Shown here one piece after another: positions 15,465 through 21,791 of a stretch of 48,934 nt of DNA (position 1 is its first letter; each line of letters begins with the position of its first letter). Both the position numbers and the translations under genes were made by a program. The DNA is from Cohaesibacter intestini (GTDB lineage Bacteria > Pseudomonadota > Alphaproteobacteria > Rhizobiales > Cohaesibacteraceae): assembly GCF_003324485.1 (NCBI RefSeq), contig NZ_QODK01000010.1, forward strand, positions 1-48,934, given 5' to 3'. Under the pieces are notes generated by a model, which ran no database searches, was not told the DNA's origin, and saw nothing but the letters and a program-made list of their open reading frames with translations.

Positions 15465-16052
15465 TTACAGCTTCACAATGCCCGTGTAATCGACCATGCG
15501 GCCCTGTTCGAGCTTGATGGCGGCACGGTAGCCGCGTTTGCCTGATACCGAGAATACGAACTTGTCGTCGCTTTGCTCGATGAGCTTGAGCAAGTTCCCT
15601 TCTGCGTCTTGCAGAAGGTCAGCATCGAAGTCACTGTCCGATAGGCCCATGTCTCGCATGAAGGTGGCATTGTGAGCGATTGCCTCTGCGGCTTGCTGGC
15701 GCTTCTTTCTATCTTTGATGCCCCAGATGTTCCCGGCGATGTAGGAAAGGATGATCACTATCAGTGAAGTAATCAGGGCGACATTGCCAAAGTCTTTGGT
15801 GAGTGCAACGCCTACGAACAGCCAGCCTCCGGTGCCGATGGTGATCAGAATGGTGGAGCCAAGGAAAGTGACGAAGAATTTATAGGCATCTCCACGGCCT
15901 TGGCCAAGATAGAAATTCCGCCAACCAAAGGCGATCAGTAGAATGCCAATGATGGCCCAGACGATTGGGTTCTTCTTTGCGGCTTTATAGAGGTCCCGGC
16001 CAAAGCTTGCTCCGAAGCCGTATGTCGACGCTGTTGCCAGTTGCTCAAGCAT
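15465..16052 (-). CDS. Three-pass membrane protein, unknown function
   Basis: The 195-residue protein has three hydrophobic segments: IVWAIIGILLIAFGW (about 30-45), FLGSTILITIGTGGWLFVGVAL (about 64-86) and VALITSLIVIILSYIAG (about 93-110). A soluble C-terminal half follows, ending in a beta-like KRGYRAAIKLEQGRMVDY. It overlaps the preceding gene by 8 nt and ends the operon. I recognise no family. In a mobile replication module such a protein could be an exclusion, holin-like or structural membrane protein, but nothing in the sequence decides between these. Confidence 0.7.
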   Translation of the reverse strand: MLEQLATASTYGFGASFGRDLYKAAKKNPIVWAIIGILLIAFGWRNFYLGQGRGDAYKFFVTFLGSTILITIGTGGWLFVGVALTKDFGNVALITSLIVIILSYIAGNIWGIKDRKKRQQAAEAIAHNATFMRDMGLSDSDFDADLLQDAEGNLLKLIEQSDDKFVFSVSGKRGYRAAIKLEQGRMVDYTGIVKL

Positions 16053-16689
16053 CGCTATTTACTCCGGTGGTGCCGTTTGCCTGGTCAGGCTGGCTCTGTG
16101 CCTGAAGTGCGATAGCCAGGGGCTCCAGAACAGTTGTGTTGAGGTCCAGCAAAGCGTCGGGAAGTTGGTTGAATAGATCATTGATATTGAAGGCCTGGGG
16201 TTTGCTGCTGTCTTTGTCGGTTTCTAGCTCAATGCTTCGCAGCGTGGCTTCATACCGCCAGTCTGTGTCGCTTTCCTTGAAGCGATGGCGAAGAGGTATC
16301 AGTGCCGCTTTGAAAGGGGTAAAATAAACCGACTTCTCATCAGGCATCCTCAATTGAATGTCGATGGAATGACGGAAGTAGCTGTTGATTTCTAGATTCA
16401 GCAAGATCGGCAGGGGAGTGATCTCGAAGGCATCTGTATCCGGGTTTCGGATCTTTACGCCGATTTGGAGGTCGATTTCGGCTCGGTCCGAGAATTCAAA
16501 TCCGCCATTGTCGATGAAGTGCAGTCTGACTTTTTCAGTACTGGCCGCTTTGGCAATCTCATCGCAGCGTGGCCACAGCCTTGCGCAAATGAGGTCATAA
16601 GCGCAGAGATCCTGTCTGATAATTTCATTGAGGACCGGCCCGTGCTGATCCCAAAGTTGGGCTACTTGTTTCACTTGATCCTTGTTCAT
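16045..16689 (-). CDS. Hypothetical soluble protein of the replication module
   Basis: The ATG at 16689 has GAGAG upstream, whereas the longer TTG form from 16734 overlaps the DUF3768 stop by 4 nt; either is possible and would couple translation differently. The 214-residue product has no signal or membrane segment. It looks like a mixed alpha/beta protein (RLHFIDNGGFEFSDRAEIDL; LLNLEINSYFRHSIDIQLRM) with a disordered Gln/Ala-rich tail. I recognise no domain. Its fixed place between DUF3768 and a membrane protein, with overlaps on one or both sides, suggests a shared function with them. Confidence 0.65.
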   Translation of the reverse strand: MNKDQVKQVAQLWDQHGPVLNEIIRQDLCAYDLICARLWPRCDEIAKAASTEKVRLHFIDNGGFEFSDRAEIDLQIGVKIRNPDTDAFEITPLPILLNLEINSYFRHSIDIQLRMPDEKSVYFTPFKAALIPLRHRFKESDTDWRYEATLRSIELETDKDSSKPQAFNINDLFNQLPDALLDLNTTVLEPLAIALQAQSQPDQANGTTGVNSDA

Positions 16690-16730
16690 TGGAATGCTCT
16701 CTTGAATAGGTTTGATCTTGTTTTGTTCTA

Positions 16731-17060
16731 TCAATATTCGTCCGCACGCATGACGGTCATCACCCGTGTCGTCTGAGCCGGGTCAGTTGGATCTGGTGAG
16801 CCATATTCCAAGTTCCGGTCGTAGCATTCAATCTTGAAGAAGAAGGTGCTGCCGTCATGAGAAAGCGAGCCGAAGTCATGTTCGCCGTATGGGTCATTGT
16901 CAGCACCAAACCCATCAAAGCACCGAATGGCTTGTAGCAAGGCTGATTGACCCTCAGCAGGCAAGCTGAGTACGCCTGGGGTGAGGAATACCTGCCCACC
17001 TTGAAGGGTCGAGCGGAATGCGTCATTGAGGACGCAAATCTTTTCAGATGATCCGCTCAT
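16731..17060 (-). CDS. DUF3768 protein
   Basis: The 109-residue protein has the DUF3768 signature: LNDAFRSTLQGGQVFLTPGV near the N-terminus, then DNDPYGEHDFG, FFFKIECYDR and a C-terminal EYGSPDPTDPAQTTRV. The family is common on plasmids, phages and integrative elements of alphaproteobacteria, and its function is not known to me. The start overlaps the preceding gene by 4 nt (ATGA). This is the one firmly recognisable family in the accessory operon and supports a plasmid- or phage-like origin for the module. Confidence 0.88.
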   Translation of the reverse strand: MSGSSEKICVLNDAFRSTLQGGQVFLTPGVLSLPAEGQSALLQAIRCFDGFGADNDPYGEHDFGSLSHDGSTFFFKIECYDRNLEYGSPDPTDPAQTTRVMTVMRADEY

Positions 17061-17692
17061 TCTTCATACTCCCAGTCAAATTGGTTGAGGTCGACTTTGG
17101 GGTGTAGCATGGCCAGATCCGACACCTGTCGCTGGAAGTTCGGCTCATCAGTGTAGTCGCGCCAGCGCAAGGTAAAATTGATTGGCCCTGTCTTGCCGAT
17201 GATCACGGCTAAGTAGAAACTTTCCTCTTCAACATCACGGGCAAGCACCAAGGAACCGACCCCAAGCTTGGACCATTCATCAGGCACTTTGCCTTCGATG
17301 ACTGAAGCGCTTGAAGCAACGGAAGCTTCACTGCTCGATCCAGCACTATCAGCATCACTACTGGCGACCAACTGAAGCTGGGGTGCTTTATCTGCCTGAG
17401 GTGCAAAGCCCATCAATTTATCGAATACCTCACCTTGGATGCGGGGCATGAACAGCTTGCCGCTGTCGAAGATCCGGCCCTTCGGCACCCGTTGGGCCAA
17501 TCCCATAATCTTAGTTCCTTTCACCACGACGGCCACTGAGCCAGCCGCTTTCGCGCTTGCCTTGGCGACCTTTGCATCGCTTGCCGCGAACCATGAGCCA
17601 CGGGCAACGCCGCTCACATCTTTGGTGATCACCACGAGCGCGGGTTCATCATTGGAACCGGCGTAGGTGATCTGTCTGGCTGCATCTGCCAT
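17057..17692 (-). CDS. Hypothetical protein heading the accessory operon
   Basis: The 211-residue form from the ATG at 17692 is chosen for its CGGAG ribosome site; a start 12 codons earlier is less likely. The N-terminal half (ALVVITKDVSGVARGSWFAA, VAVVVKGTKIMGLAQRVPKG) is Val/Gly-rich and beta-like. A Ser/Ala-rich linker (about 105-140) follows, then a second compact part (LGVGSLVLARDVEEESFYLA, PINFTLRWRDYTDEPNFQRQ). No known domain is evident. An OB-like or single-strand-binding role would fit a rolling-circle module, but this is a guess. The terminator at 17761-17792 separates it from the initiator gene. Confidence 0.65.
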   Translation of the reverse strand: MADAARQITYAGSNDEPALVVITKDVSGVARGSWFAASDAKVAKASAKAAGSVAVVVKGTKIMGLAQRVPKGRIFDSGKLFMPRIQGEVFDKLMGFAPQADKAPQLQLVASSDADSAGSSSEASVASSASVIEGKVPDEWSKLGVGSLVLARDVEEESFYLAVIIGKTGPINFTLRWRDYTDEPNFQRQVSDLAMLHPKVDLNQFDWEYEE

Positions 17693-17760
17693 TGCATATC
17701 TCCGTGTCTGGAAGGTGGAAGAAGGCACTCGGCCATGCCCGATAATGCCTACCTGGAATC

Positions 17761-17952: not shown

Positions 17953-20802
17953 CTACGACGCCTGCGTTTGCCGTTCGGACCTAGGCGCTTTCGCTTTGGT
18001 GGAGAGAGTGGTTTTGTTCCGCTTTCGCCCAGTGCTTGAGGGCTTAGGAGGCTGCTTCCGTTTTTTTGACGAGCTTTTCACACCAGCAAGCGTTTTCAGC
18101 TTGGCCCAGTCGAAAACCAACATACGAACAGTATCGATGCCCTTTCCCGGTCTAACTGAGGTGGTTAAACCTCCATCATTTGCACGAATGAATACGCCTT
18201 TAGCCTCCAGTTCGGCGAGAAGTCGCTGCTTTTCGTTTTCAGGATTCAAAGTTTCATCGATCACAAGGCCAAGAACAAGATTCTCGAAAGCCTCGTGCCT
18301 TATGTATGCTTTCCAGATGCCGAGCTTAACATATCCTGGCTTGTCAAAACCATGTACATTGGCCTTTGGTCGTCTGGGAAATTGCTCTTTGTCCGCCATG
18401 GCCTGATAGAGCGATTTGGCCAGTAGCTCCACTTTGACCGGACGTGGAGGTCCGTTTGCGATGATAGATGCGCGCGCGTATTGGCAGGCAAAGTGCACCA
18501 GCCCCGGTGCGAATGGGATGAAATCTGCGTCTTGTAACATGTAACCAGTGGCCCTGAGTTCGGCTACGAACCTCATCAGGCTTTCGTCAAACGGAGTTTC
18601 AACCTCTTCAAAATCCAAGGACTGCTCAACCTTGGTTGCAAAGTCAGAACTCAACCCATCTGGATCCTCGCACACATATTGATCCCATTTTTCCCCGATG
18701 GCACCAAAGCTGTTTCTAAGGCTTGCAGAAACTTTTTTGGCTGCGTCGCGGGGATCACCCATGCGGTTAGAAAACATGCTACGCCCCTGAGACCAGATGC
18801 CACCTTCCTCTTCGGTCGGCAAGTCAATGTTGAACACCAGGGCATCACCATCCCAGCGGTTATTGCCACCTGCATTTAGGAAGTAGGATAGGTCTTGGCT
18901 ACCGCTTGAGCAGATCAAGTAGGGAGTATCAATGGCTGTCAGCCCAACTTTTGCTGCCTTCGAGCTTGCAGGCAGCCTCAATCCAGTAAGTGCCTTGATG
19001 TTTTCGGAGATGGTTTTCTTCTCGCTTTTGTCATAATCGTGATAGCGATCAATATCCCCCATGCAGATTGCGACCTGGCCGTGGGTTTTGACTGCTTCTG
19101 CCAGATCTGCGGGGTCCATAGACCAGGAAGGCCGTTTGTCCGGGTTGCCACGAATTGAGGCGCATAGCGAGGTCAGAAGCTTTCTTTCAGACGCTGCACC
19201 CCCAGAAAAGTGGACGATGACACTTGGATGCTCTCCATTCGAAGGCCTAAGCGTAGCGAAAATGCCCAACAAAATGGAGACCATTGGAAGGAAGCGATAT
19301 GCAGCAATGTTTCCAACTTGTGTTTCCCACTCTTCAGCGGAGCCCTTTATCTCTGCAAGCCCGTACTTCTCAAGACTGGCATTCTGATAAAGGATGGTGA
19401 GATCATCGAGTTCGAGCTCTTTTTGATAAAAGGGGAAATAGGAGACGTCACCATGTTTCACCCAGGCGGCGGTATCAGTCAAAGTTCCAGCATTTTCTGG
19501 AAGACCGTTCTGGATGCTGGATGTGTCAATTCCCTTGTCAGACACCCCTGCCTTCAAGAGTTCCTGGCGAAGCTTGCTGGGGCTGTGAAAATCACCTGCG
19601 TCGAGCAAAATGCTTGCGGTGCGACTTCTATCGGAAACGGGTGCTTTGACCAAGACAAAGTGCTCCTTGGAAGCCTTATGCTGCAAGCGGTATGAGATGA
19701 TTTCGTGATTGATCATGGTAAACTCCTCCAGTTCAAGATCAGTTGTAGTGGGGTGTGCAATGTTCTGTAAAAAGTGCCGTGACAGGTGTGACATGTGTGA
19801 CAAAGGATCTGTCACAACTGTTCCAGATGTTTCGGCGATATTGAATGGTTGGAAGGCTTGGGGGGAAAGTGACAGTTTGCAGGTCAGGGCCATAGTGTAG
19901 CCAATACCTATACCCACTTTCCCTCTATCAAGCTTATAGAAGGGTCTATGGGTACAGTTATGGCCTTCCCCATCTTCATCAAGGGTAAAACCTGATGACA
20001 AACCTCTGAAGATGTCGTCATAGGGGGAACCAAGAGCAAGGTCTATCTTAGCCTTATCTGTCGTGCGCTGCTTCTTGCAATTGATCTGGATTAAACGACC
20101 ATCGACCTGATATCGGTTCAGGTAAGACCGCAGCTCAAAATCCTGATCGTCTGTGAGAAATGGCCGAACTTTTTTATCCCCCGATTGGGAAAGGCGTTTG
20201 TCCAGCTTCTGAAAGAATGCTGATTTGTAGCAGTAGGTCAGGACTCTGAAAAAGTCTTCGGCTGTGTTCTGTACCTGCCGATGGTCAACCGGTTTTAAGG
20301 CATGTTTCGACTTGCGGTAGACTTGGCGCAGTCGCTTCAATGACTCTTCCTTGGAGATGCCAAACAAAAGCAGATGCAAGTGAGGTAACCACCCAATGAC
20401 TTTTCCATTCTCTATCTTAAGCGCAAAGTCGGCGCCACCAATGAGAAGCGCCTCAGGCATGGCTCTCTGGAGGCGACGATAGTGCTTCTCCTTGAATGTG
20501 ATCAGGTCGAACTGGGATAGTTTGCCTTGTGGGATGGGTGCTTCGGATGGGTACAGTGTCAAAAAAATCCACTCCCCCGCTTTTTCGTGCAGTCTGAGTT
20601 TCGTGCATGCTTCCACCAGGCCCATGCGGAAATCGCGAAGGCAAATTGGGCAACCATCACGGCGACAACGGTTGCGAGGGCTACATCTCTTGCGTTTGAT
20701 TTTCGCAGATCTGTATTTTCTCCGCAGCATTGCCGCTTTGGACTTTGTTTCGGATGGTCCCTCAAACTTCGTAGGAAGGAACTCGGGCAATGTCATTTCC
20801 AT
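17953..20802 (-). CDS. HUH replication initiator fused to a DUF927-like domain
   Basis: The 949-residue protein (ATG at 20802, with GAGGG upstream) begins with a Cys cluster (Cys40, 46, 51, 54) and the rolling-circle Rep motifs FLTL (80-83), PHLHLLLFG with metal ligands His141 and His143, and YCYK (Tyr190, Tyr192, Lys193) as candidate nicking tyrosines. Such enzymes cut one strand at the origin and stay bound to its 5' end. After a low-complexity junction (about 295-362), a DUF927-like part follows (about 363-780). Its would-be Walker A reads FSGGAASERK, lacking the normal GKS/GKT, and Walker B-like MGDIDR replaces a DEI-type motif. ATP hydrolysis is therefore doubtful. The basic tail (KRKQPPKP and similar) may bind DNA. 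A strong internal start at 19716 could also give a DUF927-only product. A REP-type transposase is the alternative for the N-domain. Confidence 0.8.
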   Translation of the reverse strand: MEMTLPEFLPTKFEGPSETKSKAAMLRRKYRSAKIKRKRCSPRNRCRRDGCPICLRDFRMGLVEACTKLRLHEKAGEWIFLTLYPSEAPIPQGKLSQFDLITFKEKHYRRLQRAMPEALLIGGADFALKIENGKVIGWLPHLHLLLFGISKEESLKRLRQVYRKSKHALKPVDHRQVQNTAEDFFRVLTYCYKSAFFQKLDKRLSQSGDKKVRPFLTDDQDFELRSYLNRYQVDGRLIQINCKKQRTTDKAKIDLALGSPYDDIFRGLSSGFTLDEDGEGHNCTHRPFYKLDRGKVGIGIGYTMALTCKLSLSPQAFQPFNIAETSGTVVTDPLSHMSHLSRHFLQNIAHPTTTDLELEEFTMINHEIISYRLQHKASKEHFVLVKAPVSDRSRTASILLDAGDFHSPSKLRQELLKAGVSDKGIDTSSIQNGLPENAGTLTDTAAWVKHGDVSYFPFYQKELELDDLTILYQNASLEKYGLAEIKGSAEEWETQVGNIAAYRFLPMVSILLGIFATLRPSNGEHPSVIVHFSGGAASERKLLTSLCASIRGNPDKRPSWSMDPADLAEAVKTHGQVAICMGDIDRYHDYDKSEKKTISENIKALTGLRLPASSKAAKVGLTAIDTPYLICSSGSQDLSYFLNAGGNNRWDGDALVFNIDLPTEEEGGIWSQGRSMFSNRMGDPRDAAKKVSASLRNSFGAIGEKWDQYVCEDPDGLSSDFATKVEQSLDFEEVETPFDESLMRFVAELRATGYMLQDADFIPFAPGLVHFACQYARASIIANGPPRPVKVELLAKSLYQAMADKEQFPRRPKANVHGFDKPGYVKLGIWKAYIRHEAFENLVLGLVIDETLNPENEKQRLLAELEAKGVFIRANDGGLTTSVRPGKGIDTVRMLVFDWAKLKTLAGVKSSSKKRKQPPKPSSTGRKRNKTTLSTKAKAPRSERQTQAS
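19779..19815. repeat. Iteron-like GTGACA cluster inside the initiator gene
   Basis: GTGACA occurs at 19779, 19788 and 19797 with an exact 9-nt period, and its inverse TGTCAC occurs at 19810-19815. The cluster lies in the linker between the HUH and DUF927 parts, about 60 nt upstream (minus strand) of an internal ATG with GGAGGAG at 19723-19729. It could be an iteron, operator or origin. Confidence 0.55.
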
Positions 20803-20813
20803 AATAGCCCTCT

Positions 20814-21221
20814 TCAATACTGACTAGTATTCTGCTTCACGCCCTGCTCAATGAAAGCCTTCAGATCGGCATGGCGATAGCGGATGGTACGGTTGGCCAG
20901 CTTGATGAAGAGCGGTCCGCCACCAGCACTTCGGAAGTTAGCAAGCGTCTTTGCTGACAAGCCAAGAACGCGGGCTGCCTTTTCGGGGGTAAGGAGGTCG
21001 TCGGGCTTGTATTGTCGAGCTCTTGTGCGCTTAGTTCTGCGCTTTGGCGCGCGTGTACTTCTATGTTTTACCCGGGCTGTGGCCTCGGGGAACTCCGCCG
21101 CCATGAGTTCGCGGATGTGATCGACATCAAGCAAGTTTGCGCGATACAGCAGCAGTGCTTGATGGAAGACAGCTGTTGTGAAGTCTTTCTTGGATAGGTC
21201 AGAGAGTGTGGATTGAAGCAT
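20814..21221 (-). CDS. AlpA/excisionase-like helix-turn-helix protein
   Basis: The 135-residue protein (ATG at 21221 with GGAG 9 nt upstream) has a helical N-terminal part, a very basic linker (STRAPKRRTKRTRARQ) and a C-terminal MerR-like HTH_17 domain (LLTPEKAARVLGLSAKTLAN, then FIKLANRTIRYRHADLKAFI). This fold is shared by phage excisionases and AlpA-type regulators of integrated elements. The gene ends 11 nt before the initiator start, so it probably regulates that operon or assists excision. A 23-codon longer form from 21290 is less likely. Confidence 0.8.
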   Translation of the reverse strand: MLQSTLSDLSKKDFTTAVFHQALLLYRANLLDVDHIRELMAAEFPEATARVKHRSTRAPKRRTKRTRARQYKPDDLLTPEKAARVLGLSAKTLANFRSAGGGPLFIKLANRTIRYRHADLKAFIEQGVKQNTSQY

Positions 21222-21714
21222 TTGCTTTCTCCAGTTCGCTTGTTGGGTTGAAGCGTGAGTTTGGAGCAAGCTGGATATGGAAAAGCCCAAGTGCTATGTC
21301 TCACAAAACGCACGCAAGAAAATCGTCAGCACCATTGCTGAGCAAAAGAAACTCTTGATTGTGGTTTTGTTCGAATAGCCCTTAGGCGAAAATGCCCTCG
21401 GTGTACCCGCCGGTGGTAGCTGTCTATTCAGTAAGGCACTGAACAGATCGAGATCGAACGGCGCTGTTTTAGTGGGCAATCTCCATGTCTTAATGCGGTC
21501 AAGTGCAAGGACTTTCCTTGCTACAGAACAATATGGATACTTAAAATTGAATTTTCAAGAGATATAAAGATATTTTTATGTGTCAAAGACATTCAGATGC
21601 TGTGGGGCCATACGTTGTGCTGGTCCACGTAAAATGTGAAGTGCATGCGTGCTTACTATGTGCTTACTTTTCAATTTTTGAAGTTTGATATTTTGAGTAA
21701 GTCATTGAAAATAT
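21222..21714. other. AT-rich att-like region beside tRNA-Arg
   Basis: No convincing gene is seen. The stretch is AT-rich and, close to the tRNA 3' end, holds the tandem direct repeat GTGCTTACT at 21649-21657 and 21660-21668 (11-nt period). Short tandem arm-type sites next to a tRNA 3' end are typical of attachment sites used by tyrosine recombinases. The promoter of the HTH-initiator operon should also lie here, but I cannot fix it. Confidence 0.55.

Positions 21715-21791
<77 letters not shown>

Follow-up and report, generated by a model that had tools for sequence, protein, structure and literature searches.

An HUH-type initiator in frame with a DUF927 protein whose ATP site appears lost, at a tRNA-Arg gene of Cohaesibacter intestini

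The stretch of DNA analyzed here (the window) is a whole contig of Cohaesibacter intestini, NZ_QODK01000010.1, 48,934 nucleotides long. On its minus strand, an open reading frame (ORF) at 17953-20802 encodes an HUH-type rolling-circle initiator and a DUF927 protein in a single frame of 949 residues. Our analysis indicates that the ATP site of the DUF927 part has been destroyed while its reading frame and predicted fold have been kept, and this apparently dead motor is, as judged from sequence, the notable feature of the locus. It is possible, at close to an even chance, that the ORF is the replication-start module of a tRNA-Arg copper-resistance island, in which a nickase would operate with a non-hydrolyzing DUF927 protein and a host helicase. 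A natural DUF927 protein with a dead motor would allow one to test which job, origin binding or unwinding, such an island needs. The parts of the ORF are as follows.

20005..20802, minus strand: HUH-type rolling-circle initiator domain with a four-Cys cluster, FLTL, HLH and Y-x-x-K (18-row alignment)
20002..20004, minus strand: GGT codon at the place of the TAG stop of the relative in L007 (aligned without gaps across the stop and TTGTCATCAGG-TTT)
19717..20001, minus strand: open spacer read as a "linker", with a predicted local distance difference test (pLDDT) score of about 33 and no protein similarity beyond LSSGF
19779..19802, minus strand: three iteron-like TGTCAC repeats with a period of 9 (p 0.04 against shuffles, uncorrected)
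19714..19727, minus strand: AGGAG, 6 nt and ATG, a Shine-Dalgarno match at the internal DUF927 start
17953..19716, minus strand: DUF927 protein of 587 amino acids (aa), similar to Cch and SaPIbov1 Rep (profile and predicted fold)
19180..19209, minus strand: FSGGAASERK at the Walker A position (alignment)
19054..19065, minus strand: MGDI at the Walker B position, the first acid changed to G (alignment)
18079..18450, minus strand: C-terminal domain resembling a winged helix, with TcpK of the pCW3 relaxosome as a match

The first-pass annotation had proposed an HUH initiator joined to a DUF927-like domain with a decayed Walker A, and these claims hold. The pairing is confirmed by an 18-row motif alignment and the DUF927 profile, the DUF927 homology is real by both profile search and predicted fold, and where the window reads GGAASERK, the aligned position in the relatives is occupied by GK[ST]. 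The protein has the sequence and fold of its family but lacks the residues of an active ATPase, namely the Walker A GK[ST], the Walker B acid, and a conserved Arg that is deleted in the window and present in all 15 other rows counted (L049 left out). A frameshift was rejected as the cause of the P-loop loss, the other frames being without GK[ST]. No stop or frameshift occurs in the 587 DUF927 codons, when 8.6 stops would be expected on average from random substitution to 31% residue change. The assembled genome has no second DUF927 match. Across 17 DUF927 rows (those of 16 HUH-DUF927 pairs and L008), GK[ST] is kept in 14. In L049 (4486-6402, minus strand), a separate DUF927 gene beside an HUH gene has also lost its P-loop (TRDAYPSA); the two distant matches in its family, ORFs of 857 and 829 aa scanned without their N-terminal halves, have intact P-loops. 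L013 combines a window-like GD at Walker B with an intact P-loop, so the Walker B change alone need not abolish activity. The DUF927 gene of L044 (7820-9796, plus strand) reads GSGRST, with the Walker A Lys replaced by Arg.

The losses fall mainly in the AAA+ core. We counted columns conserved in half of 15 other rows, with domain borders of our own setting, and compared the window with L006, its sister in the DUF927 tree. Within the core, 27 columns were lost by the window and kept by L006, versus 5 in the reverse direction (p 1e-4); at thresholds of 0.3, 0.4, and 0.6, the counts were 39 v 19, 35 v 13, and 18 v 3. Among the lost columns are the Walker A G and K, the Walker B D, and the Arg. 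HUH columns gave 6 v 6 in the comparison with L007 and 10 v 8 in that with L006. In the DUF927 tree of the 16 pairs, the window has an end branch of 2.86 versus 1.05 for L006 (support 99/97), and in the corresponding HUH tree its branch is 0.78 versus 0.93 for L007, with weaker support (85/66); the trees flag several long branches. Since the two halves have different nearest relatives, an exchange of HUH and DUF927 partners is suggested. The absence of stops, together with the excess of losses in the AAA+ core, favors a protein kept for something besides ATP hydrolysis, although one sequence cannot prove it.

Physical fusion of the two parts as one protein is doubtful and unproven. The HUH gene of L007 (genome G015) ends TTC GAA TAG TTG TCA TCA GGG TTT, to which the window sequence TTC AGA GGT TTG TCA TCA GGT TTT aligns without a gap. 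The joining looks like the loss of a stop codon in the window, which is simpler than a gain in L007 because a stop closes each of the 17 other HUH genes listed. The frame stays open for 95 codons after the junction; a run of 82 codons without a stop has a probability of about 2%, and long open frames follow the HUH stop in 3 of 17 relatives (L014 with 97 codons, L046 with 77, and L007 with 74). A conserved protein linker was rejected, LSSGF alone being common to the window and the post-stop frame of L007. Coding log-odds are 0.04-0.08 in the linker, versus 0.17 in HUH and 0.30 in DUF927.

Compared as DNA, the spacer resembles that of L007 at p 0.035, a result owed to its first 15 nt (p 0.44 without them), and that of L006 at p 0.051. 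Folded as single-stranded DNA, the window spacer had a z score of -3.6 (1 of 200 shuffles), or -2.4 in a multi-spacer comparison, and the L007 spacer had one of -2.8. The comparison took in 14 of 16 spacers, leaving out L015, with its genes on opposite strands, and L043, with a spacer of 36 nt; the median z was -1.39 versus -0.12 in 56 controls (p 0.001), and z fell below -2 for 6 of the 14 spacers but for no more than 3 of the 56 controls. The controls were coding rather than ordinary intergenic DNA, which weakens the comparison. The iteron test gave p <0.05, uncorrected, in 3 of 15 spacers (the window, L007, and L044; L015 left out), and iterons were rejected as a general spacer feature. A Shine-Dalgarno match as long as the one at ATG 19716 is found at 2 of the 45 ATGs within the ORF, that one included, and L007 has AAGGAG ahead of its DUF927 ATG. 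Because the "linker" has neither protein conservation nor a predicted fold, is predicted to fold well as single-stranded DNA, and leads to a DUF927 start with its own Shine-Dalgarno sequence, we conclude that it is mainly DNA; it is probably origin DNA, and DUF927 is likely still made separately. Of the single tied machine envisaged at first pass, the shared frame stands, but the join has the look of a lost stop and an open spacer, with DUF927 keeping its own start.

In the HUH part, HLH and the Tyr motif YCYK are present; the Tyr is invariant in the 18 rows, and the second His is variable. The predicted model has pLDDT >80 for residues 11-190 and >70 for residues 211-270. In the checks proposed at first pass, DUF927 matched by profile and agreed in fold. 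Against Rep_1 (PF01446), the HUH part scored 12.8 bits, under the curated 33.2, and a Pfam cut-off was passed by neither this part nor any of ten relatives scanned. Its best structural match was RepB of pMV158 at low Z, and Foldseek alone returned no row at E 0.001. Among relatives, L014, L015, L016, L042, L043, and L045-L048 have G, N, W, Q, M, or Y in place of the second His of the HUH motif, and some of them also lack the first His; the Tyr is kept in all.

Separate neighboring HUH and DUF927 genes are frequent in the surveyed loci, and a dead ATPase and a single frame are unusual. With the whole protein as query, so that either half could match, a family search found 4 of 20 genomes; HUH-profile searches found 15 of 397 genomes in the order, 7 of 385 in the class, and 8 of 378 in the phylum, in sets that overlap and with an order and class profile that already contained seven of these loci. 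We examined 21 distinct HUH loci. DUF927 adjoins HUH in 16 of them, with both on one strand in all but L015; among the 14 loci detected solely by HUH profile (L042-L055), the number is 9. Five further loci from the phylum search include one with a short DUF927 piece. Among surveyed loci, only the window has both as one ORF. Close relatives were found in none of the viral contigs (distant DUF927 at 19-20% at best), phages, or genome contigs searched, and a plasmid search gave two HUH-region matches at 27%. In a literature search on DUF927, HUH, and rolling-circle replication that left most subscription journals outside, no title or abstract opening named an HUH-DUF927 pair.

How might such a module start replication? 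The HUH domain would nick an origin that probably lies in the intervening spacer. DUF927 would be produced chiefly from the internal ATG, perhaps with some read-through fusion as well, and would contact this origin with its N-terminal and winged-helix regions, serving as a clamp or scaffold that does not hydrolyze ATP. PcrA, UvrD, and Rep act in plasmid rolling-circle replication, and a host helicase of this type would unwind the DNA as it does for rolling-circle plasmids; we infer its recruitment by the island from this analogy. A bolder version, in which an HUH nickase is served by a permanently non-hydrolyzing, MCM-like DUF927 ring as origin clamp and host-helicase loader, arisen in at least two lineages (the window and L049), is rather unlikely. 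If true, it would represent a new division of labor in island replication.

A number of observations pull away from a functional module. The window keeps 10 of the 23 most conserved DUF927 columns, the lowest of 17 rows. Its coding signal is about zero (-0.05) for residues 521-560, around the lost P-loop, and its predicted fold comes from a model built with an alignment of intact relatives. Outside the AAA+ core, there are few columns and little power (N-terminal part, 3 v 2; winged-helix/C-terminal part, 2 v 2; at threshold 0.3, 8 v 8 and 6 v 6). A relative close enough for a ratio of nonsynonymous to synonymous substitution (dN/dS) was not found, and the iteron-like repeats are weak. In addition, the DUF927 gene is dispensable for mobilization in MGIVchHai6 (PMC7449626, excerpt). 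The retained columns and MGIVchHai6, along with the fast DUF927 branch, support the main rival, that DUF927 is a dispensable, decaying relic, that the stop loss is part of this decay, and that HUH works alone or nothing works. Yet a fast branch alone does not mean a dead motor, because the branch of L013 is equally long (2.89) despite an intact P-loop. The relic must also account for 587 codons free of stops and frameshifts and for an excess of loss in the core that is detected neither in the other DUF927 parts, where power is low, nor in HUH. We regard it as possible, at well under an even chance.

The single frame of 949 residues and the low chance of so long an open stretch would also fit a true fused Rep, in which read-through is selected and nickase and DUF927 ring are one protein, as in the HUH-superfamily 3 (SF3) Reps of elements related to circular Rep-encoding single-stranded (CRESS) DNA viruses. 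Such a protein is improbable given a DUF927 start with its own Shine-Dalgarno and ATG, a linker with neither protein conservation nor predicted structure, and the comparable open frames in L014, L046, and L007. Alternatively, a dominant-negative or regulatory DUF927 could insert into the rings of related islands, whether incoming or stacked, and stop them from replicating. The preserved predicted fold and the apparent stacking of tRNA-Arg islands in this genome are in keeping with this idea, but the assembled genome is without a second DUF927 match and direct evidence is lacking, making it very improbable. A defense role was rejected; PADLOC gave one weak match to the ORF (E 0.007).

To our knowledge, RepB of the rolling-circle plasmid pMV158 has no DUF927 partner, and the window domain, which it matches at low Z, differs in having an N-terminal Cys cluster. 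With Cch of SCCmec and SaPIbov1 Rep (PDB 5dgk, 8tch), the window shares an island setting and, along most of the protein, the DUF927 fold. Excerpts of PMC7581432 and PMC5862659 describe DUF927 in both, with helicase activity. These are self-loading helicases with an aligned, intact Walker A, whereas in the window Walker A, the first acid of Walker B, and the conserved Arg are gone and an HUH initiator is the partner; in staphylococcal islands, a primase precedes the DUF927 helicase or is fused to it (PMC10061031, excerpt). The HUH-SF3 Reps of CRESS viruses and pCRESS integrative plasmids likewise place nickase and helicase domain in one frame and occur in integrated elements, but in the window the helicase part is DUF927 rather than SF3, its catalytic residues are lost, and a second start precedes it. 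Papillomavirus and polyomavirus initiators, with an inactive HUH and an SF3 helicase, also have one catalytic half dead; the window would be their mirror image, its nuclease motifs looking intact and its motor dead. Among prokaryotic viruses, those with Reps that have no helicase domain recruit cellular helicases (PMC6668415, excerpt, for the viral and CRESS-type systems).

The window is contig C10 of a 4.79-Mb genome in 27 contigs. To the left of its tRNA-Arg gene lie copper genes for a P-type ATPase, a MerR protein, and multicopper oxidases. Other features near the ORF are as follows.

21715..21791, minus strand: tRNA-Arg(CCG), right boundary of the island
20814..21290, minus strand: HTH_17 excisionase-like gene just upstream of the ORF; a homologue adjoins the pair in L014
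15465..17728, minus strand: four genes downstream of the ORF, encoding a 223-aa protein, a DUF3768 protein, a 229-aa protein, and a membrane-like 195-aa protein; relatives have counterparts

At the same locus in two genomes of the genus, G015 and G008, homology begins at 21709, the 3' end of the tRNA, and does not continue leftward in the 15.9 and 10.3 kb retrieved from these genomes. The region therefore has what is expected of an integrative element: a tRNA target, a boundary, and a site unoccupied in relatives. The window's contig has no PF00589 (integrase) match. On contig C5, a 407-aa integrase lies beside a copy of tRNA-Arg and may mark where the window's element ends on the left, and tRNA-Arg islands are apparently stacked in this genome. 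L085 and L086 (G000:C5:1-28600) hold two copies of the tRNA 3' part, each adjoining a tyrosine integrase. More metal-resistance-like genes, named by eye, occupy 1-9 kb of C5, which may likewise belong to that left end. A Cohaesibacter metagenome-assembled genome (L056) has similar copper cargo and the neighbor protein, with no HUH or DUF927 match and a 288-aa ORF in that place. Counterparts of the DUF3768 gene (16731-17060) and its unnamed neighbors (17057-17728 and 16045-16734) adjoin the pair in several relatives, and identity to L007 is 83% for the 223-aa, 47% for the 229-aa, and 82% for the 195-aa protein.
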